Source of the DNA: Candidatus Bathycorpusculum acetigenes
GTDB lineage: Archaea; Thermoproteota; Bathyarchaeia; Bathyarchaeales; Bathycorpusculaceae
DNA: 51,012 nucleotides
Assembly (NCBI GenBank): GCA_009781675.1
Contig: WQVG01000006.1
Span: forward strand, 1 to 51,012
Reading direction: 5' to 3'
Within the stretch, counting starts at the first letter, position 1. Every line of letters starts with the position of its first letter. The position numbers and the translations under genes were made by a program. Under the pieces are notes generated by a model. It was not told where the DNA came from. It was given only the letters and a program-made list of their open reading frames with translations, and did no database searches. Shown here piece after piece: positions 3-47,966 of this stretch.

Positions 3-81
3 TGGTGAGGCCGCTGGGATTTGAACCCAGGATCGCATGCGCCCCAGGCATGTATCCTAATCCATGCTAGACGACGGCCCC
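3..81 (-). tRNA. tRNA-Pro, anticodon GGG
   Basis: Read on the minus strand the segment folds as a complete cloverleaf of 79 nt including an encoded 3' CCA. The acceptor stem GGGGCCG pairs with CGGCCTC (one G-T pair), the anticodon stem CATGC pairs with GCATG, and the 7-base loop CTGGGGC places GGG at positions 34-36. The T-stem CTGGG/CCCAG encloses TTCAAAT. The discriminator base is A. No intron is needed for the fold. I see no convincing TATA element at the expected distance upstream. Confidence 0.95.
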
Positions 82-24652: not shown

Positions 24653-25651
24653 GTGACAGCAAATAATGCTCGGCTTAAAATTGGAATCGTTGGTTTGGGT
24701 AAGATGGGCATTATGCATGCTTGTCTTCTAAACACTCTGTCCAACGTAGAGGTCCGTGCGCTTTGTGATAAAAGTCGTCTGATTCGTACAATAGCTAAGC
24801 GGTCCTTTAGGGGTGCTCTAATCACTGATTCTCTTGAGCGGTTAGCTGGTTTGGATCTTGATGCAATCTATGTGTTGACACCTATACCCTCTCATTATCC
24901 CATAATCAAGGAAATTTATGCAATGAACTTGGGAAGAAATTTGTTTGTGGAAAAAACTCTTACGGCTAGTTACAACCAATCCGCTGAACTCTGTACTCTT
25001 TCAAATGCGCAGGGTGGCATCACCATGGTGGGTTATATGAAGCGGTTTGGAGTCACTTTCAACCAAGTTAGACAGCTCTTAGAAAAACAGGTGTTAGGCA
25101 AGGTGGAGTCCTTTGATGCGTATGCATTTTCCTCTGATTTTGCTGATGTACCGGAGGGTTCTACGTTATCAAAGGCACGGGGCGGGGTCATTGAAGACCT
25201 TGGTTCACATGTGGTTGATTTGGCAGGATGGTTTTTTGGCGATCTCAAGGTCACTGATGTAAAGGTTAACTCGCAGCTTTCTCTGGGTTCAGAGGATGAT
25301 GTGAGCTTTAGTGTCGCAGGTAAAGAGGGACTAGTGGGAGATTTTGAAGTTTCATGGCGTAAAAGTCACTATCGTATGCCCGAATTTGGCTTATCGATCC
25401 AGGGTACAAAGGGTGTCTTAGAGGTCAATGATGATGAGGTAAAATTAGCCCTAAACGGTGCAGAGCCAAAACGATGGTACCGTCACGATATGGCCGATAA
25501 TGTTGGTTTTCTTTTGGGTGGACCTGAATATTATCGTGAAAACCAGCAGTTTATCCGCTCCATAATCTCGGGTGAACCCCCAGAATCAAGTTTTAAAAAT
25601 ACACTAAGAGTGGATTATCTCTTAGAACAGGTAAGGCAACAAAGCAGATGA
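24653..25651 (+). CDS. Gfo/Idh/MocA-family oxidoreductase (EKT variant)
   Basis: A 332-aa NAD(P)-dependent sugar oxidoreductase. The Rossmann motif GIVGLGKMGIMHA (11-23) opens the protein, and the C-terminal alpha/beta domain contains GGVIEDLGSHVVDLAGW. The usual E-K-P of the cofactor/active site appears as E100-K101-T102. The likely role is oxidation, epimerisation or 3-keto chemistry on a nucleotide sugar. The GTG start at 24653 has no clear ribosome site. Its stop overlaps the next ATG by four bases (ATGA), so it is coupled to the NPFHG protein. Confidence 0.9.
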   Translation: MTANNARLKIGIVGLGKMGIMHACLLNTLSNVEVRALCDKSRLIRTIAKRSFRGALITDSLERLAGLDLDAIYVLTPIPSHYPIIKEIYAMNLGRNLFVEKTLTASYNQSAELCTLSNAQGGITMVGYMKRFGVTFNQVRQLLEKQVLGKVESFDAYAFSSDFADVPEGSTLSKARGGVIEDLGSHVVDLAGWFFGDLKVTDVKVNSQLSLGSEDDVSFSVAGKEGLVGDFEVSWRKSHYRMPEFGLSIQGTKGVLEVNDDEVKLALNGAEPKRWYRHDMADNVGFLLGGPEYYRENQQFIRSIISGEPPESSFKNTLRVDYLLEQVRQQSR

Positions 25652-39594: not shown

Positions 39595-40029
39595 GTGCTT
39601 GTTAAACCCGGCAGTAGTTTAGATATATGTCATATAGTGAATTTTCCTAAAGTGACCGATTATCGGGGTAATCTCTCCTTTATAGAGGAAAATCGACAGA
39701 TACCCTTTCAGGTCAAACGCGTCTACTATCTATATGATGTTCCCAGTGGAGCCAGCCGCGGCGGGCACGCACACAAAGAACTCGAGCAAGTCGTTATCGC
39801 TTTGAGCGGCAGTTTTGATGTCATTTTAGACGATGGCGCCAACAGACGCACATTTTTTCTCAACCGTCCCCACTATGGCCTCTATATTCCACCGGGAATA
39901 TGGCGGGAGCTCGAAAACTTTTCATCTAATTCTGTTGCGCTCTCTTTAGTTTCTCAGATCTATGATGAATCCGATTATCTTCGGGATTACGATGAATTTA
40001 AACGGTGGGTTACAAATGAAGGGGAATAG
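39595..40029 (+). CDS. FdtA/QdtA-like cupin sugar 3,4-ketoisomerase
   Basis: A 144-aa single-domain cupin. RGGHAHK at 55-61 provides the histidines H58 and H60 expected for dTDP-4-keto-6-deoxyglucose isomerases, and VVIALSGSFDVILDDG forms the barrel strands. In the family it moves the keto group from C4 to C3 before transamination, leading to 3-amino-3,6-dideoxy sugars. The GTG start has GGAGG seven bases upstream, and a TTTTTATAC TATA-like element lies at 39555-39563. It heads an overlapping cassette with two acyltransferases. Confidence 0.88.
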   Translation: MLVKPGSSLDICHIVNFPKVTDYRGNLSFIEENRQIPFQVKRVYYLYDVPSGASRGGHAHKELEQVVIALSGSFDVILDDGANRRTFFLNRPHYGLYIPPGIWRELENFSSNSVALSLVSQIYDESDYLRDYDEFKRWVTNEGE

Positions 40030-40702
40030 CGAGAAACTCTTAATCATCGGTGATGGAGAAACTGCAGAGCTTGCCTGGGACTACTTTAGTCATCAGGGTT
40101 TTAGGGTGTCGGGCTTTAGCGTTGAGAAGGCCCACCTAAAAAAGGATATACTACTGGATTTACCCGTGGTGCCCTTTGAAGAAGTAGAATACACCTTTAA
40201 CCCAGAGGTTTATCGGGCGTTTGTTGCTGTCTCCTACACTCAGCTCAATCATCTCAGAAGCAGACTCGCCACAGCTGCCAAAAGTAAAGGCTATCGGCTC
40301 GCCACATACATAAGTCCCCATGCCTACATATGCAACGGAGTAGAAATAGGGGAAAACTGTTTCATACTTGAAAACACAGCCATCCAGCGGGGTGCAAAAA
40401 TCGGCAACAACGTTACGATCTGGACCGGAAGCTCAATCGGCCATCGCACAACTGTTGAAAATAACTGCTTTTTTGCTACCAACGTGGCAGTTTCAGGATT
40501 CTGCCGAGTGAATGAGAACAGTTTTTTGGGAGTTCACAGCTGTACCTCAGATGGAGTGAAAATTGGCCGTGATTGTATCGTTGGAGCCGGAGCCGTAGTC
40601 ATTAAAGATACGCTGGATGGCAGAGTTTATGCGGGAAACCCGGCTAAGCCGCTGGTGAAAAAAACCTCGCAAACCTACATTTCTGGAGCAGAAACGATTT
40701 GA
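40016..40702 (+). CDS. PglD/NeuD-like sugar O/N-acetyltransferase (left-handed beta-helix)
   Basis: A 228-aa enzyme from ATG at 40016 (14-base overlap with the FdtA gene). The N-terminal Rossmann-like PglD domain begins LLIIGDGETAELAWDYF. From about residue 95 onward hexapeptide repeats build the beta-helix (ISPHAYICNGVEIGENCFI, then AKIGNNVTIWTGSSIGHRTTVENNC), with the likely catalytic His in SIGHRT, and it ends GNPAKPLVKK. It transfers acetyl from acetyl-CoA to an amino sugar nucleotide. The coupling to FdtA supports a 3-acetamido sugar product. Confidence 0.9.
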   Translation: MKGNSEKLLIIGDGETAELAWDYFSHQGFRVSGFSVEKAHLKKDILLDLPVVPFEEVEYTFNPEVYRAFVAVSYTQLNHLRSRLATAAKSKGYRLATYISPHAYICNGVEIGENCFILENTAIQRGAKIGNNVTIWTGSSIGHRTTVENNCFFATNVAVSGFCRVNENSFLGVHSCTSDGVKIGRDCIVGAGAVVIKDTLDGRVYAGNPAKPLVKKTSQTYISGAETI

Positions 40703-41664
40703 CAGATATTAAAAAAAACCCAAAAGATACATTAAGCATTTTTGGGTACAAACCAGAGAACAAAATACTCTGGGACAACTTTATTTCTGCCTCCAAGAAC
40801 GGTGTTTTTCTGTTTTTTAGAGACTACATGGAGTACCATTCACACCGCTTCGCTGACCATTCACTGATGTTCTATAGTGGAGACAAACTCATTGCACTAC
40901 TACCCGCCAGTGTTGAAGGGCCTACTCTCTATAGTCATGGAGGCTTAACTTTTGGCGGTGTAATCTCTACCTATGAAATGAAAACACCTCTGATGCTCCA
41001 AATTTTTAATTCTCTAACCGCATACTGCCATAGTCGAGGCATAACTGAAATAGTTTACAAACCGGCGCCCTACATTTACCATTCAATCCCCGCCGACGAA
41101 GATCTCTATGCCCTATTTACCTATAATGCATACCTAACAGCACGCAACGTTTCCTCGGCCATCTATCTGCCCAACGCTAAGGGTTTTGATGGCAACCGCA
41201 AAGACAACCTGCGGAAGGCTAAAAAAAATAATTTAACTGTACAGAAGTCTGATGATTTTGACGCGTTTATGCGCATCGAAGAGGAAGTGCTTGTTGATCG
41301 TCACGGTGTTAAACCGGTGCATTCTGCGGAGGAAATTAAACTGTTAGCGGATAGGTTCCCAGACAACATCAAGTTGTTTGCCTCCTTCAAAGACAATATT
41401 ATGCTTGCAGGTGTCGTTATGTACGAGAGCAGAAACGTAGCTCACATGCAATATGCCGCCAACTCTAAGGCAGGCTGGAACATAGGAGCACAAGACATCA
41501 TCGAAGACTATCTCATAAAAGAACACTATAAAGATAAGAGGTATTTTGATTTCGGAATTTCCACTGAGAATCATGGAACCCTGCTCAATGTAGGCTTAAT
41601 TAATCGTAAAGAGAACTTTGGGGCAAGCGCAGTTGTGTATGATACCTACAAAGTCACGCTATAA
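40699..41664 (+). CDS. FemAB/GNAT-like acyltransferase
   Basis: A 321-aa protein with two GNAT-fold halves of the FemAB (Acetyltransf_6) type: FFRDYMEYHSHRFADHSLMFY early, KDNLRKAKKNNLTVQKSDDFDAF in the middle, and MQYAANSKAGWNIGAQDIIEDYLI then FDFGIST near the end. Relatives transfer amino-acyl or acyl groups to cell-wall or sugar substrates. Its TTG start overlaps the preceding stop by four bases (TTGA). Together with the PglD-like enzyme it suggests the glycan carries more than one acyl decoration. Confidence 0.85.
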   Translation: MTDIKKNPKDTLSIFGYKPENKILWDNFISASKNGVFLFFRDYMEYHSHRFADHSLMFYSGDKLIALLPASVEGPTLYSHGGLTFGGVISTYEMKTPLMLQIFNSLTAYCHSRGITEIVYKPAPYIYHSIPADEDLYALFTYNAYLTARNVSSAIYLPNAKGFDGNRKDNLRKAKKNNLTVQKSDDFDAFMRIEEEVLVDRHGVKPVHSAEEIKLLADRFPDNIKLFASFKDNIMLAGVVMYESRNVAHMQYAANSKAGWNIGAQDIIEDYLIKEHYKDKRYFDFGISTENHGTLLNVGLINRKENFGASAVVYDTYKVTL

Positions 41665-41705
41665 TCAGTAGAATATTTTCCGAGAAACCTTAGGAGGCGA
41701 TATGT

Positions 41706-43415
41706 TTGTTGGCAAATGAATCGGGTCGGGATAAGCGGCCTGAGGGGTTGTTAACCACAGATGTTTGTCTCTTTTCTACCCATAATCCCCAGATTGCAGA
41801 AAACCAGAAGATATTTAAAAAAATCGTGAAAAAAGTAAACCATGCCCTCAATAAAGGCGATTTAACCGCCGCCATTACATGGGCTAAAATTGCTGCGCAC
41901 TTCGCTTTCATCCGACACCCAGGTATCTACACAAATCCAGAACTAGAAAATCTGTTGCTCAACATCGCCCGGCGCATAGAACAACAACCCCCCGATATCA
42001 GCGGTGCCTTCTACCTAAAGACCAAACCGAAAAACTTTGGAAAAATGCGCTTCCTCCATGTTATCACCGAAAGCTATGACACCGGCGGTCATTCGTCATT
42101 TGTTGCCCGATGGATAGATAACACACTTGAGAGTGCAGTACACAGTGTTATAACGACCGCACAGAACAATGAACTCCCCGCCACTCTGCAAAACGCTGTA
42201 GCTAAATCTGGAGGTTGGTACTGTTCGCTCACTGAGTTGTCAGCTAACTTGGTGGAGCAGGCTTTGCTGTTACGTCTGCTGGCTCGGAACTGGGCAGACG
42301 CTATCGTGCTCCTTATTCACCCCTTTGACCCTATCCCCTTGGTCGCCTTTGGTATCGAGGGTGGCCCGCCAATAATTTTATGCAACCATGCTGATCATGC
42401 ATTTTGGTTGGGAAGCGGTATAGCCGACGTAACAGTAGATTACCACAGCTCAGCTACAAAACTTAACCAAGAACGTCGAGGCATTAAAAACGCAAAACTT
42501 TTGCCCATTCCCCTCGCAAAAAGCAGTCCCATCAGCCACAGCACCAAACTGAGAGAATCTCTGGGATTTAGCAATCAAGATGTGGTTTTACTTACAGTGG
42601 GACGGGCCGAGAAATTCTATCCTTTTGGCGGCTATGACTTCCTTGAAGTTATGGTCAGATTTTTAAATAAGCATCCAAATGCAAAACTGGTTGCAGCGGG
42701 ACCCAAACCCAGGGGCAAATGGGAAGATGCCTCTGTTAGGGTAGACGGTAGAATCCAAGCCTTAGGTACTGTTGAACGGCAAGAACTCGAAAAGTACTAC
42801 ACTATAGCAGATGTGTATGTAGCAAGTTTCCCCTGCGGCAGCGGAACGGCATTGCTTGAGGCGGCGATGCATAATCTCCCAATCGTTGGTCTACATCTTA
42901 GAGAACTTCCACATCTAAGCCTCGAAGATGATGTGGGATTTAAAAAACTAAAAGTGCATAATTGCTCGCTTGAAGAGTTCTCAGATTCATTGGATTTTGT
43001 TGCACTAAACTGCCGCTCAAAACAACAGAAAACCAGAGCCAAAGCTGTTAAAAAAAACGTTGAATATGAACACTGTACACCAGGCTGGAACAATTATCTT
43101 GACACCGTCCTACAATCATTGCCCTCCCAGCACTCCATCCAGGAACCCCAGACCTTAAACGAGGAAACCGATTATACCGATATATATTGGGAAACATTAA
43201 GTGCACAGATGATGACAAATGAGCACCCTCAGCATTCGCTTAGCCGATTAGTGCGCGTCTATGGTAACGGCCTCTCTAGAGGCGATTTGATTGGTACTCA
43301 AGCGGAAAGTCTCCGTTTAGCTTTCCTAAAAATAGATAACCTTCAAAGAACCAAACAGTTTTTTTTGGAATTCAAAGAGTTCACGTCCTGCCTCTTCTCT
43401 AGTCATAGTAGTTAA
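41706..43415 (+). CDS. Family 4-like glycosyltransferase with N- and C-terminal extensions
   Basis: A 569-aa protein from TTG at 41706 (or the adjacent TTG at 41709), after AGGAGGCGAT. Residues 1-110 are a helical extension; the GT-B part runs from about MRFLHVITESYDTGGHSSFVA to KKNVEYEHCTPGWNNYL. The nucleotide-binding part has VVLLTVGRAEKFYPFGGYDF and PCGSGTALLEAAMHNLPIVG, in which the first Glu of E-x7-E is replaced by Cys. The last 100 residues are another helical region. It lies in the operon 39595-47081. Donor and acceptor are unknown. Confidence 0.82.
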   Translation: MLANESGRDKRPEGLLTTDVCLFSTHNPQIAENQKIFKKIVKKVNHALNKGDLTAAITWAKIAAHFAFIRHPGIYTNPELENLLLNIARRIEQQPPDISGAFYLKTKPKNFGKMRFLHVITESYDTGGHSSFVARWIDNTLESAVHSVITTAQNNELPATLQNAVAKSGGWYCSLTELSANLVEQALLLRLLARNWADAIVLLIHPFDPIPLVAFGIEGGPPIILCNHADHAFWLGSGIADVTVDYHSSATKLNQERRGIKNAKLLPIPLAKSSPISHSTKLRESLGFSNQDVVLLTVGRAEKFYPFGGYDFLEVMVRFLNKHPNAKLVAAGPKPRGKWEDASVRVDGRIQALGTVERQELEKYYTIADVYVASFPCGSGTALLEAAMHNLPIVGLHLRELPHLSLEDDVGFKKLKVHNCSLEEFSDSLDFVALNCRSKQQKTRAKAVKKNVEYEHCTPGWNNYLDTVLQSLPSQHSIQEPQTLNEETDYTDIYWETLSAQMMTNEHPQHSLSRLVRVYGNGLSRGDLIGTQAESLRLAFLKIDNLQRTKQFFLEFKEFTSCLFSSHSS

Positions 43416-43433
43416 TTTTACGTATATAGATGG

Positions 43434-44345
43434 ATGTTTAGCATGAGCCTTGTAAGTTTAGTGAAAATTCCACTCAATACAGATGACCCACTCAAGCAGG
43501 CGATAGCACAAGCACTAAGTCTAATCGACTACACCTTTGATAAGAACGTACATAAAGTCGTGATTAAACCTAACTTGTGCTATTACTGGGACGCCACCAC
43601 AGGACAAACGACTTCACCGCAATTTGTGGGATCACTTATTGATCTAATCCGTGGACAAATTCACCCCGACGTTGACATTGCCATTATAGAATCGGATGCT
43701 TCTGCCATGCGTTGCAAGTATGCCTTTAGGATGCTTGGCTATACAAAACTTGCAGAAGAAAAACATGTTCGACTTGTCAACCTCACCGAAGATCAAGCAA
43801 CAAACACCAATGTCCACTGTGGTACTAACAGCTATGATTTTATGGTACCTAAAACCATCCAAGAAGCCGAACTCAAAATCAACATTGCACACATAAAATA
43901 TACCGTTAACCCCATCAAACTTACCTGCGGACTCAAAAATATCTTTGGCTGCAACCCAGCACAGAAAAAATTTAAGTACCACAACGATCTTGGCAACGTC
44001 ATAGTTGCCTTAAACAAAGTGATGCCCTTTGACCTTACCCTAGTCGACAGCAACATTGCCGCAGGCGTCCAACCACGCAGAATGGGCTTGGTTATGGCAA
44101 GTCAAGACCCTGTTGCATTAGATTCTGCGGCTGCAAAAATCGCTTGGCTTGATCCCGCCAAAATTCCATATTTTAAAACCGCAGAACAAGAAGGCATTGG
44201 AAAACGCACCTACATTTTACGGGGGGAACCGCTTGAGTCTTTTAGGGCGATTTATCCTAAGCCGCCATTTAACATGAAACTTAAAAAACAACTCAAAAGG
44301 ACGCTTGTAACGGTTGGTTTAGGCAAACGCATGGGGCTAGAGTGA
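43434..44345 (+). CDS. DUF362-family protein
   Basis: A 303-aa cytoplasmic protein of the DUF362 family. Signatures include VHKVVIKPNLCYYWDATTGQ, then DVDIAIIESDASAM, then LTCGLKNIFGC and ALDSAAAKIAWLDP. Unlike many members it lacks an attached ferredoxin domain, although scattered Cys residues remain. The ATG at 43434 or 43443 may serve as start. Its stop overlaps the Gfo/Idh start (GTGA). Family function is not established. Here the operon position says sugar modification or precursor supply. Confidence 0.85.
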   Translation: MFSMSLVSLVKIPLNTDDPLKQAIAQALSLIDYTFDKNVHKVVIKPNLCYYWDATTGQTTSPQFVGSLIDLIRGQIHPDVDIAIIESDASAMRCKYAFRMLGYTKLAEEKHVRLVNLTEDQATNTNVHCGTNSYDFMVPKTIQEAELKINIAHIKYTVNPIKLTCGLKNIFGCNPAQKKFKYHNDLGNVIVALNKVMPFDLTLVDSNIAAGVQPRRMGLVMASQDPVALDSAAAKIAWLDPAKIPYFKTAEQEGIGKRTYILRGEPLESFRAIYPKPPFNMKLKKQLKRTLVTVGLGKRMGLE

Positions 44346-45340
44346 ATAATATGGAAAATAAACAGATACAAATAGGACTTATCGGAGCGGGCGGCGTTGG
44401 TCAGATGCATCTAAAACACGGTTTGATGCTTAGAGACGCAAAAATCACAGCCGTTGCAGACACTGCTAAACCCACTTTAGAACGAGCAAAAGCGTTGGGT
44501 ATTAAAAACATCTATACTGACTACACCGAGATGCTCAAAAATCCCCAGATTAACGCCGTCATAATTGCACTGCCCACGCATCTACACCACAGTTGTGCTC
44601 TCCAAGCGGCAGAATCAGGCAAAGATATTTTTCTTGAAAAACCCATCACCGTTGATGTCCAAGAAGCCAAAGAAGTTATCTCAGCGGCTCAGCGCAATTC
44701 TGTGAAACTGATGTTGGGTTATCCCATGCGGTTTAATCGTCGATTTCTCAAACTCAAAGCAGATATGGCAGAGGGATTAATCGGTGACCCAGAAAACGTA
44801 CATGCAACCTATGTGTGCGCTGGTCCCTTTGTTCATCGCGCTGATGGACACTCACCTGCACCTGTCCCTGATTGGTGGTTTAATACGCAATTTAGCGGCG
44901 GCGGCGCTCTTGCCGATCTAGGATGTCACATAATCAATCTGTTGCGGATGCTATTTGGTGAAATAGTTGACATTAAAGGACAGTTTGGCTACCGTTATAA
45001 CATGGATTTTGAGGACTCGGCTATGTGTCTTGCCCGCTTCACCTCAGGTACTTTGGCGGCCATCAACGTGGGCTGGTACGCTCAAGAGTATCTTTTGCGG
45101 CTTGATGTTTTGGGAAGCGTTCGAAACGTTTCCGTCGGACATATGCCACCCAAAACCATGCCTGCTGCCTATCAGATGCTTACTCATGGCATTTCAGAGT
45201 TTAATCAGCCTCACTTCGATGAGCTCCAGTACTTTGTGAATTGTCTCCACACCGATCAGGAGCCTACGCCCACGGGGTTAGATGGACTTAGGGATTTAGA
45301 GGCTATAACCAAAGCTTACAGAAACAAAATAACGCTATAA
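44342..45340 (+). CDS. Gfo/Idh/MocA-family oxidoreductase (canonical EKP)
   Basis: A 332-aa NAD(P)-dependent oxidoreductase. GLIGAGGVGQMH at 12-23 binds the cofactor, and E99-K100-P101 is the standard active-site lysine motif. GGGALADLGCHIINLLR supplies the conserved D/H pair of the C-terminal domain. It starts with GTG overlapping the DUF362 stop by 4 bases and lies 4 bases before the flippase gene. It likely oxidises or epimerises a nucleotide sugar. It is the second Gfo/Idh paralogue in the locus; the other (24653) has EKT. Confidence 0.93.
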   Translation: MNNMENKQIQIGLIGAGGVGQMHLKHGLMLRDAKITAVADTAKPTLERAKALGIKNIYTDYTEMLKNPQINAVIIALPTHLHHSCALQAAESGKDIFLEKPITVDVQEAKEVISAAQRNSVKLMLGYPMRFNRRFLKLKADMAEGLIGDPENVHATYVCAGPFVHRADGHSPAPVPDWWFNTQFSGGGALADLGCHIINLLRMLFGEIVDIKGQFGYRYNMDFEDSAMCLARFTSGTLAAINVGWYAQEYLLRLDVLGSVRNVSVGHMPPKTMPAAYQMLTHGISEFNQPHFDELQYFVNCLHTDQEPTPTGLDGLRDLEAITKAYRNKITL

Positions 45341-45344
45341 CAAC

Positions 45345-47081
45345 TTGGATCTGATGCAGATGGCTAAGGCTATAGAGATGGGCAAAACCTCAGCTATTGG
45401 CAGTTTTCATCTGCTGTTGGGCGTCGCCGGTTCCACTATCATTATGGCTATAGGCACCATCGCTTTGGGAATACTCCTTCCTGCGGAGGGTGTTGGACTC
45501 TATGGTATGGCACTGATTCCTTCAGCGATTATTAACTTCTTTAGGGATTGGGGAGTTAACACCGCCATAACAAAACAGATCGCGGGATTACGGGGAACCG
45601 GTAGAGACTCAGAGATTCATGATGTTATCGTTTCAGGAATTGTTTTTGAGATCATAAGCGGCATTGTTTTGTCGTTGATTTGTTTTGCGATTGCATGGCC
45701 ACTTGCTTACATCATCAGTCCCCAAAATGCAGAAGCATTATCCCTCTACATAGGCATCATGTCGGTCTCTATTTTTGCAGGCGCCATCGCAGCTGCATCA
45801 GGCGGCGTTTTTGTAGGCTATGAACGCATGAAACTCAACAGCATCACACAAATCAGCCAAGCCATAATCAAAACTGCACTTGGACCCCTGCTCATCATAA
45901 TAGGTGCAGGTGTTTTAGGCGCAGTAGTGGCGGCTATGGTTTCCATGCTTGCAGGCGGCATCATTGCCGTTCTTTTGGTCTACTATATCCTGTTTAGGCC
46001 TCTGCGTAAAAGTAAAACCGGTAAATGTGACATAAAACAAACTCTAAAACCTATGCTAACGTATGGACTACCGTTGACCGCCTCAACCATCGCGGCTGGT
46101 GTACTACCGCAGGTTTTTTCTTTTGTCATGGCAGTTTATGCCGGCACCTGGATGATGGGAAACTACTTTACCGCCGTAAACTTTTCGGTTCTGCTCACCT
46201 TTGTTTCTATCCCAACTGCGACAGCACTATTTCCGGTTTTTGCAAAACTAGATCCACAAAAAGAACCCGAACTTCTAAAAACAGTGTTTGCTTTCTCAGT
46301 GAAGTATACGGCATTACTTCTTGTTCCAGCTACCATGGCATTGATTACACTTGCAACTCCGTTAGTTAATACACTATTTCCTATGGAGGGAATTTTTCAG
46401 TCACTCCTTGTTGCTGGCGCAGAACCCAAGTTTCCCTTTGCTCCGCTCTTTTTAGTCCTCTCAGCAGCGGTTAACTTGTTTGTCCTCTTTGGCAACGTCA
46501 GTTTAGGAACCTTTCTTATCGGCATCGGCGAAACCAGACAACTCATGAAGCAGAGTGCACTGTCTTTGGCAGTTGGGTTACCACTGGCTTATTTTCTGGT
46601 TGAATATTCTTTTTCGCTGGGCGGTTCAAACGCTCAGCTGTCATCGGCTTATGCAGTGATAGGAGGCTTAGTTGGCTCTCTTATAGCAAGTATGCCAGGG
46701 ATGATTTGGGGACTAATTTGGAGCTGGAGAAAATATCATGTTAGGGCTGATTTTAGGGTTTCCAGCAAAATTTTTGCAGCTTCTCTGTTTGCATCCATCG
46801 TATCGTTTGCGCTGATTAGTTTTTTGAACCTGCCCTACGTAATTATACTAGCGGCGGGGTTTGTGGTGTTTGGGTTGGTTTATCTTGTTGCCGCACCCAT
46901 TTTTGGGGCCGTCAATCGTATGGATATAGAGAATTTCCGCGCTATGTTTTCAGGTTTAGGCATTGTTTCAAGGTTTCTTAACGTGCCTTTGTTGTTTATG
47001 CGTAAGATATGCCGGGGTAATGTTGAACCACAGGTTTTAGCCCCCGCTGGTTCACAACCGGATGATAGCCAGAAGCCTTAA
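45345..47081 (+). CDS. Wzx/MATE-type oligosaccharide flippase
   Basis: A 578-aa multispanning protein with about 14 hydrophobic segments, beginning SFHLLLGVAGSTIIMAIGTIALGILLP. It is typical of polysaccharide transporter/flippase proteins (PST/AglR-like) that move lipid-linked oligosaccharides across the membrane. Charged residues in helix 1-2 (GLYGMALIPSAIINFFRDWGVNTAITK) and a cytoplasmic tail rich in Pro/Gln fit the family. The TTG start at 45345 is followed by ATG at 45354. It ends the long operon; T-rich sequence follows. Confidence 0.92.
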   Translation: MDLMQMAKAIEMGKTSAIGSFHLLLGVAGSTIIMAIGTIALGILLPAEGVGLYGMALIPSAIINFFRDWGVNTAITKQIAGLRGTGRDSEIHDVIVSGIVFEIISGIVLSLICFAIAWPLAYIISPQNAEALSLYIGIMSVSIFAGAIAAASGGVFVGYERMKLNSITQISQAIIKTALGPLLIIIGAGVLGAVVAAMVSMLAGGIIAVLLVYYILFRPLRKSKTGKCDIKQTLKPMLTYGLPLTASTIAAGVLPQVFSFVMAVYAGTWMMGNYFTAVNFSVLLTFVSIPTATALFPVFAKLDPQKEPELLKTVFAFSVKYTALLLVPATMALITLATPLVNTLFPMEGIFQSLLVAGAEPKFPFAPLFLVLSAAVNLFVLFGNVSLGTFLIGIGETRQLMKQSALSLAVGLPLAYFLVEYSFSLGGSNAQLSSAYAVIGGLVGSLIASMPGMIWGLIWSWRKYHVRADFRVSSKIFAASLFASIVSFALISFLNLPYVIILAAGFVVFGLVYLVAAPIFGAVNRMDIENFRAMFSGLGIVSRFLNVPLLFMRKICRGNVEPQVLAPAGSQPDDSQKP

Positions 47082-47125: not shown

Positions 47126-47138
47126 TGGAGTGATATTT

Positions 47139-47966
47139 TTGATGTCAACTAAGAAAAGCGTTTCAACCATATTTATCGCAGGTATCTTTTTAGCCGCCGG
47201 AGGTTTTTTGCTTGTTTGCTCGTTTATTTTTGAAATGCAGGTAGCGGCTTTTGTCGGGTTAGGCTTAACTTTTTGGGGTGCTGTTTTTGTTTTAGCTCGG
47301 AATGGAAACTATGTTGATAGCAGTCTTCTTGACAGCAGCGCTCACTCTACTTACTCGACCATTGATCGGATGATTAGTGATTTAAAATATAGCGGTCATG
47401 GCTACTACATCCCGGCCTATCCAAAGGATGTCTTTTTGCCTGATTATCTAAAGAATCTGCGTGACCCTGTAGTTTTTATCACTGAGAATTTTGATGGTAA
47501 CCCCTCCATCGATGAGTTGGCACAGAACAAATTTATCTCCACTCAAACTCGTGGCGTCTTTGTAACTTCGCCCGGTGCAGGTATCATGTCGCAGGTTGAG
47601 CGGCAGTTACGACTTGATCTAAGCAAAATCAGTTTGGACGAACTCGCGGATATATTACCTAAATACCTCACCGAGAATTTGAACTTAGCTAAATCTGCAA
47701 GTCTAGTGTTGACGTCCCATGGAGCTGAGTTTAGAGCACGAGGTATTCTCTATGAGAGCTTATATAGCCCTGAGAGTAATCTCAAAAGTCTCAGTTTGTT
47801 GGGTTGTCCTGTTGTCAGTGCGGTAGCCTCGGCGCTTGCTAAGACCTCAGGTAAAACTGTGGTTATTTCAGAGCAGAAGATTTTTCCGGGAAACAGTGTT
47901 TTTGCTGTGTATATTTTCGTTGGGAGACAAAAAAATGAACTTCCCCCTCGCGATTCCCGATATTAG
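47139..47966 (+). CDS. Two-helix membrane-anchored protein of unknown function
   Basis: A protein of about 275 aa from TTG at 47139 or the adjacent ATG at 47142, eight to eleven bases after GGAG. Two N-terminal transmembrane helices (STIFIAGIFLAAGGFLLVCSF and VAAFVGLGLTFWGAVFVLA) are followed by a mixed alpha/beta soluble domain, probably cytoplasmic by the short loop. Recognisable stretches are RGVFVTSPGAGIMSQVE and LGCPVVSAVASALAKTSGK. I do not recognise the family. It overlaps the next small membrane protein by 32 bases, so the two likely form a complex. Confidence 0.7.
   Translation: MMSTKKSVSTIFIAGIFLAAGGFLLVCSFIFEMQVAAFVGLGLTFWGAVFVLARNGNYVDSSLLDSSAHSTYSTIDRMISDLKYSGHGYYIPAYPKDVFLPDYLKNLRDPVVFITENFDGNPSIDELAQNKFISTQTRGVFVTSPGAGIMSQVERQLRLDLSKISLDELADILPKYLTENLNLAKSASLVLTSHGAEFRARGILYESLYSPESNLKSLSLLGCPVVSAVASALAKTSGKTVVISEQKIFPGNSVFAVYIFVGRQKNELPPRDSRY

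Follow-up and report, generated by a model that had tools for sequence, protein, structure and literature searches.

A DUF362 subfamily of Bathyarchaeia is co-inherited with, and in a related lineage fused to, a Gfo/Idh oxidoreductase and probably works with it as one enzyme

What might a DUF362 protein do when its gene overlaps that of a Gfo/Idh/MocA oxidoreductase within a glycan locus, and do the two proteins act together? This question is raised by a 51,012-nt stretch of DNA (hereafter the window) from Candidatus Bathycorpusculum acetigenes, which makes up a single contig of a genome of 2.1 Mb (95% complete). On the forward strand, the gene of a 303-aa DUF362 protein (43434..44345) is followed by that of its partner, a 332-aa Gfo/Idh/MocA oxidoreductase (44342..45340). 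The initial annotation had described a GTGA overlap between them, and this is seen in the sequence at 44342..44345, with the DUF362 stop under the Gfo/Idh start, if GTG 44342 is the start codon; an in-frame ATG is present at 44351. It had also recognized a DUF362 protein lacking a ferredoxin domain, in agreement with PF04015 as the sole Pfam domain (119.2 bits, cut-off 24, profile positions 1-200 of 200) and with the lack of a CxxCxxC motif. The Gfo/Idh protein matches PF01408 (98.7 bits), PF22725, and PF02894, all above their cut-offs, which correspond in Pfam to Rossmann and C-terminal domains.

The surroundings of the pair are also as first described. A flippase (45345..47081; PF01943, 109.6 bits) begins just behind the pair, and genes encoding FdtA-like, NeuD-like, and FemAB/GNAT-like proteins and a glycosyltransferase lie upstream (39595..43415), all on the forward strand, so that the setting here is a glycan locus. 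A protein without Pfam or NCBIfam match (47130-47966) is kept 3′ of the flippase in same-genus loci. A tRNA-Pro (ggg) is located at the contig start (window 3-81), and apart from one tRNA no Rfam family was found at the gathering score. Promoter and terminator scans returned 12 and 11 sites, compared with 15.0 and 8.7 in shuffles, i.e., no clear excess. As only four Gfo/Idh domains above the cut-off, and one below it, are present in the 2.1 Mb of this genome, chance adjacency to DUF362 is unlikely.

The neighborhoods of DUF362 relatives were examined among the window's relatives and then in a 250-genome sample of its class, in each case for part of the matches. The resulting 107 DUF362 ORFs, a set biased to relatives of the window's DUF362, comprise 60 members of its subfamily (defined as >260 bits with the subfamily profile A3), 13 Gfo/Idh fusions, 31 other DUF362 proteins, and three fragments that were set aside, namely the two halves of the frameshifted L069 gene, one of which adjoins a Gfo/Idh ORF, and a remnant in L068. 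A same-strand Gfo/Idh ORF lies directly beside the subfamily DUF362 gene in 56 of 60 cases, with intergenic gaps of −55 to 172 nt. Among the misses, a contig end cuts the Gfo/Idh fragments beside DUF362 in L109 and L078, a truncated Gfo/Idh is in place behind DUF362 in L124, and the contig stops inside the DUF362 gene in L060, which is unreadable. Because profile A3 was built from paired proteins, the 24 subfamily genes taken by score alone (L106-L126) provide a fair test, and 22 of them are paired, the exceptions being L109 and L124. It is worth noting that L124, L068, and L069 represent decaying or frameshifted modules, with a truncated Gfo/Idh, a DUF362 remnant, and both genes split, respectively.

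Outside the subfamily, a Gfo/Idh neighbor was found for only two of the 31 other DUF362 proteins (a second copy in L123, and L142). The association with Gfo/Idh therefore belongs to one DUF362 subfamily together with the fusion clade, and pairing as a general property of ferredoxin-less DUF362 proteins was rejected. The lack of a ferredoxin domain, which the initial annotation had pointed out, does not mark the group, and the neighborhood analysis that it proposed supports the coupling within the subfamily but not among ferredoxin-less DUF362 proteins at large. CxxCxxC occurs in one of the 107 ORFs (L096), in a sample biased as described above. This protein is among several longer DUF362 proteins (L091-L096; 396-506 aa) that carry extensions. 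In addition, solitary DUF362 proteins, mostly with lengths of about 275-310 aa, make up a clade of eleven rows (L082-L084, L100, L102, L135-L137, L139-L141), of which that in L082 sits a few genes before a triosephosphate isomerase gene.

Is the adjacency inherited as such? In a DUF362 tree of 104 rows, the core of the subfamily forms one clade of 54 rows (support 100/100), in which the Gfo/Idh gene is downstream in 32 and upstream in 19, with several changes of order, while three rows (L060, L109, L124) have no Gfo/Idh ORF in the set. In the Gfo/Idh tree (83 rows), the 51 partners of this core likewise form one clade (98/92), with subclades that for the most part match the DUF362 ones. The 13 unpaired Gfo/Idh proteins, meaning those in the stretches examined, all fall outside this clade. 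Seven of the 58 paired Gfo/Idh proteins are found outside the main partner clade, and their DUF362 proteins are likewise outside the DUF362 core clade. Over the 58 pairs, DUF362 and Gfo/Idh distances are correlated with a Mantel r of 0.944. Fourteen genomes carry two or three pairs, and when partners were shuffled within genomes, the mean r was 0.54 and 0 of 999 shuffles reached the observed value; the shuffled r being far below that observed, paralogous pairs keep their own partners. DUF362 and Gfo/Idh have thus been co-inherited as matched pairs through order flips and duplications.

The two proteins are also joined in nature. Thirteen proteins consist of an N-terminal Gfo/Idh and a C-terminal DUF362 part, an architecture that Pfam confirms in the three checked; twelve of them are 634-655 aa long, and that in L133 is a 491-aa ORF overlapping a Gfo/Idh ORF. 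A 45% complete genome from another class of the phylum contains a fourteenth fusion. The fusions form one clade (99/95), with L142, an unfused Gfo/Idh-first pair, as their sister in both trees. From sequences judged by eye, the fusion genes seemingly lie near housekeeping-like genes, away from glycan loci. A search with the fusion protein, run alongside the plasmid search, gave no record covering 80% of the protein among 1249 matching records. Operon hitch-hiking is ruled out as the cause of the association by the paralogue-specific pairing, the order flips, and the fusions. Taken together, adjacency, order flips, paralogues that keep their own partners, and 13 fusions point to one co-inherited two-part enzyme. 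The coupling first read from a single locus is therefore borne out, and the two proteins probably work as one enzyme; the pairing is well supported, and the chemistry is what we infer below.

A second cassette in the window offers a parallel. Here, a second Gfo/Idh gene, GFO2 (24653..25651, forward strand), overlaps ORF25648 (25648..26553, forward strand), which encodes a 301-aa partner without Pfam match, and the order GT2f-GFO2-ORF25648-GT2e is found in nine loci, including the window; in L191, L193, and L211, one border gene of the cassette is off the stretch or contig. In five congeners (L070-L074), the same slot holds GT2f-Gfo/Idh-DUF362-GT2e instead. Of the 18 genomes of the genus that carry the first DUF362 copy, five have the slot pair without ORF25648, 13 have ORF25648, and none has both (Fisher p 1.2e-4), although this value overstates the exchange, since only three changes are needed on the tree; in addition, ORF25648 is in two pieces in G021, and the gene order differs in G017. 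The exchange of cassettes in the GT2f-GT2e slot suggests a role for DUF362 as a second, exchangeable enzyme beside a Gfo/Idh. ORF25648 itself gave no Pfam, PDB, or useful NCBIfam match, its single-sequence model (pLDDT 38.6) is useless, and the AKR label once considered for it is a guess without support. The window's genome has a further copy of the GFO2 cassette on its contig C11 (L216).

The catalytic residues of the Gfo/Idh half of the module are retained. As catalytic motifs, we take the lysine of EKP and D-x-x-x-H, and the corresponding residues K100, D192, and H196 are present in the window's protein; across the coupled Gfo/Idh enzymes, the lysine and the histidine are found in 70 of 70 and the aspartate in 69 of 70. 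With these residues kept, Gfo/Idh should oxidize or reduce a sugar hydroxyl. The best NCBIfam models, TIGR04380 (156 bits, cut-off 355) and NF040723 (134 bits, cut-off 450), for inositol 2-dehydrogenase IolG and the archaeal UDP-GlcNAc 3-dehydrogenase, score far below their equivalog cut-offs.

For the DUF362 half, a sequence search of solved structures with the protein or its profile gave nothing meaningful, and its likeness to a known fold comes from a predicted structure. An AlphaFold2 model from 11 sequences has a pLDDT of 78.6, with values below 50 at residues 159-181, around the key lysine. Foldseek matched the model to 8ezf (E 1.5e-5, TM 0.47/0.36), with TM-scores to LarA-type chains of only 0.27-0.47. 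By VIA, the model matches 7s91 with Z 14.7 (rmsd 3.3 over 205 residues), 4nar (Thermotoga maritima Q9WYS3) is row 12 with Z 11.9, and Z drops to 5.7 in the row that follows 4nar and the LarA entries. DUF362 is therefore predicted, on the model, to have the fold of the N-domain of LarA (lactate/malate racemase). DUF362 and DUF2088 (LarA) share the Pfam clan CL0471, and LarA-clan enzymes are 2-hydroxy-acid racemases or epimerases (PMC11770544). In LarA, K184 binds the nickel-pincer nucleotide (NPN), H200 is a Ni ligand, and H108 and H174 are catalytic, with a role also for R75 (PMC11770544). Two of the fold-search matches, 9q3j and 9q3k, carry titles that describe LarA-like NPN enzymes having only one catalytic His.

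Among the residues of DUF362, K45, K168, and D230 are conserved in 104 of 104 rows and H183 in 103 of 104, and an alignment of 20 rows, namely paired forms together with three fusions and a single solitary protein, has 16 invariant columns. K168 is aligned to LarA K184 by a weak profile alignment (E 0.013), and H183 was matched to H200 by hand only, both in a region where the model is poor. In the same weak alignment (E 0.013), T157 falls at the column of the catalytic His174. A histidine is found at this column in 29 of 30 solitary DUF362 proteins, whereas it is present in only 12 of 71 coupled ones (L060, L078, and L109 left out). The loss of this histidine in coupled forms would fit a changed chemistry, a trend that is not significant on the tree, and it could mean that acid-base catalysis in DUF362 has been lost. 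As a signature of coupling, the loss was rejected, as it amounts to two to four independent contrasts and the sign test is not significant.

Whether DUF362 uses the LarA cofactor was approached through the NPN genes of 42 module-bearing genomes, including that with the frameshifted copy (G046) and leaving out G030 (60% complete). LarC is absent from 18 of the 42, twelve of which were rechecked with matching controls in G048 and G128. Of these 18, eleven combine a completeness of 90% or more with a contamination of 5% or less, including G164, which has a truncated Gfo/Idh. LarE over the cut-off is absent from all of the same 18 (among them G017, G018, G021, G039, G046, and G049); all genomes searched have matches below the cut-off, which probably represent other ATP-pyrophosphatases. 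The other 24 module genomes have LarC, including the window's own, which also has LarE. Since LarA homologs with an intact motif occur in the LarC-less genomes G018, G036, G041, G046, and G058 (the motif was read in seven of 15 homologs), a missing LarC is not proof that NPN is absent. Nonetheless, because 18 of the 42 genomes lack LarC and the same 18 lack LarE, the nickel-pincer cofactor is probably not used by DUF362. In the window's own genome, a malate-racemase-like LarA homolog is encoded on contig C45 (L081:6574-7863), in which Arg replaces the cofactor lysine; this lysine is retained in the LarA homologs of some relatives.

Our leading, still tentative, reading is a two-part sugar-modifying enzyme in which Gfo/Idh makes a keto-sugar and DUF362 isomerizes it, with substrate, reaction, and cofactor all inferred. 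Gfo/Idh would oxidize a hydroxyl of a nucleotide- or lipid-linked sugar of the glycan precursor with NAD(P)+, yielding a keto-sugar. DUF362 might then carry out an acid-base step on this intermediate, epimerization or isomerization or, less likely, elimination, in the cleft that holds the nickel-pincer cofactor in LarA and by means of its conserved Lys/His/Asp set, and Gfo/Idh may re-reduce the product of that step. The NAD of Gfo/Idh would thereby take over the hydride work done in LarA by the nickel-pincer nucleotide, and the reaction would supply a rare sugar to the surface glycan exported by the adjacent flippase. In its specific form, that of a two-part sugar epimerase with a LarA-clan DUF362, devoid of nickel-pincer cofactor, as its isomerase half and with its hydride chemistry done by the NAD of Gfo/Idh, the proposal is rather doubtful. 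The apparent position of the fused forms away from glycan loci, the low TM-scores, and the loss at the His174 column count against the two-part reading in general, as do the weak profile alignment behind the residue mapping, the poor model around the key lysine, the seven paired Gfo/Idh proteins outside the main partner clade, and the small number of changes (three) that explain the cassette exchange.

Other roles of DUF362 may be weighed against the two-part enzyme. That DUF362 is a non-catalytic subunit, binding the substrate for Gfo/Idh or stabilizing it, is unlikely though by no means negligible: strict pairing and fusion, with one presumed catalytic His lost, would suit such a subunit, but the 16 invariant columns are what is expected of a kept active site. 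A ligase- or kinase-like DUF362 that attaches something to a sugar or lipid carrier seems quite improbable. The strictly conserved K45, K168, and D230 could bind phosphates and a metal, but the nearest folds are LarA-type racemases and fusion to an oxidoreductase does not favor such an activity; in the best 50 rows from each fold search, a weak phosphoglycerate kinase match (7zy7, E 0.043) was the sole enzyme of this kind noted. The initial annotation had proposed a redox or ligase-like step. Its redox part is likely for the Gfo/Idh half, given the retained catalytic residues, while the racemase-like fold of DUF362 points to isomerization or epimerization more than to a ligase step, for which no evidence was found.

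It is also improbable, and somewhat more so, that DUF362 serves Gfo/Idh as an electron-transfer or Fe-S partner, in place of the ferredoxin domain of other DUF362 proteins. Three cysteines (C49, C165, and C173) do occur together in 43 of 58 paired forms vs. 3 of 33 without adjacent Gfo/Idh, but all three are present in only 10 of 21 Gfo/Idh-upstream pairs and in 0 of 13 fusions, and a three-cysteine Fe-S site was rejected on account of this absence from the fusions. Moreover, Gfo/Idh enzymes work with NAD(P) and are not known to take Fe-S electrons. Least probable is that DUF362 is itself an NPN enzyme, a LarA-type sugar-acid epimerase, while Gfo/Idh acts independently in the same pathway. The same predicted fold, the conserved K168 and hand-placed H183, the LarC and LarE of the window's genome, the intact-motif LarA homologs in LarC-less genomes, and a match of the L070 DUF362 to an NPN malate racemase model (E 0.022, weak and far below the cut-off) speak for it; the module genomes without LarC and LarE and the histidine mostly gone from the H174 column in coupled forms speak against it.

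How widely the two-part module occurs was surveyed mainly among archaeal relatives of the window's genome, with bacteria hardly sampled. The ten nearest DUF362 loci are titled Candidatus Bathycorpusculum (three), Bathyarchaeota (three), Nitrososphaerota (two), Crenarchaeota (one), and Methanophagales (one). Across 398 genomes of the phylum, no subfamily member (>260 bits) was seen outside the class; in G552, which belongs to another class, a DUF362 protein of 212 bits has no Gfo/Idh within 1.5 kb on either side. The contig titled Methanophagales, outside Bathyarchaeia, carries a pair that is 51% and 46% identical (L044:9992-11902), for which transfer, an old origin, and misbinning are alternatives. 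Fourteen pattern matches in viral contigs included no relative, and two DUF362 matches in plasmids had no Gfo/Idh in the surrounding stretches.

Given the fixed partner, the natural fusions, and the predicted relation in fold, the function of DUF362 becomes a testable enzyme question, in terms of which sugar, which carbon, and which cofactor. If the two-part reading is true, DUF362 would gain a function and archaeal surface sugars a new way to build an epimerase. It would also show a metal-cofactor fold reused together with an NAD enzyme, and offer a way to approach the surface glycans that uncultured Bathyarchaeia make.

In the passages retrieved from the open-access literature searched, neither the pair nor the fusion is described, and no function is assigned to DUF362. 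DUF362 has been reported joined to the carbohydrate-binding module CBM9 (PMC5742341), which is a similar link to carbohydrates, although these are multi-domain proteins with CBM9 and dockerin, and no Gfo/Idh is noted in the part of the source that was available. The nearest NCBIfam model, NF052623 (Npun_F2552 family, DUF362; 59.7 bits vs. a cut-off of 500), states no function, and its name was not found in the open-access literature searched. With the LarA superfamily (PF09861/DUF2088), DUF362 shares its clan, in the source cited above, as well as the predicted N-domain fold and a lysine that the weak profile alignment places at K184. However, LarA proteins are about 400-430 aa long and DUF362 matches their N-domain only, and unlike LarA it is paired with Gfo/Idh, occurs in genomes without LarC and LarE, and mostly has no His at the His174 column. 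The window's Gfo/Idh has its domains and the K-D-H residues in common with IolG (inositol 2-dehydrogenase) and the archaeal UDP-GlcNAc 3-dehydrogenase, but its scores are far below the cut-offs, and it belongs to a clade of its own that is always found with DUF362 in our set. In IolG with IolE or IolI, and in similar pairs of a dehydrogenase and an isomerase, the Gfo/Idh enzyme oxidizes the substrate and the partner then isomerizes or dehydrates the keto product; the known partners are TIM barrels. The scheme of oxidation followed by isomerization proposed here is the same, but the partner would have a LarA-type fold instead of a TIM barrel. Overall, Gfo/Idh, DUF362, and LarA are known families, and what appears to be new, within the literature searched, is a Gfo/Idh system, in two parts or fused, whose partner is of LarA type.
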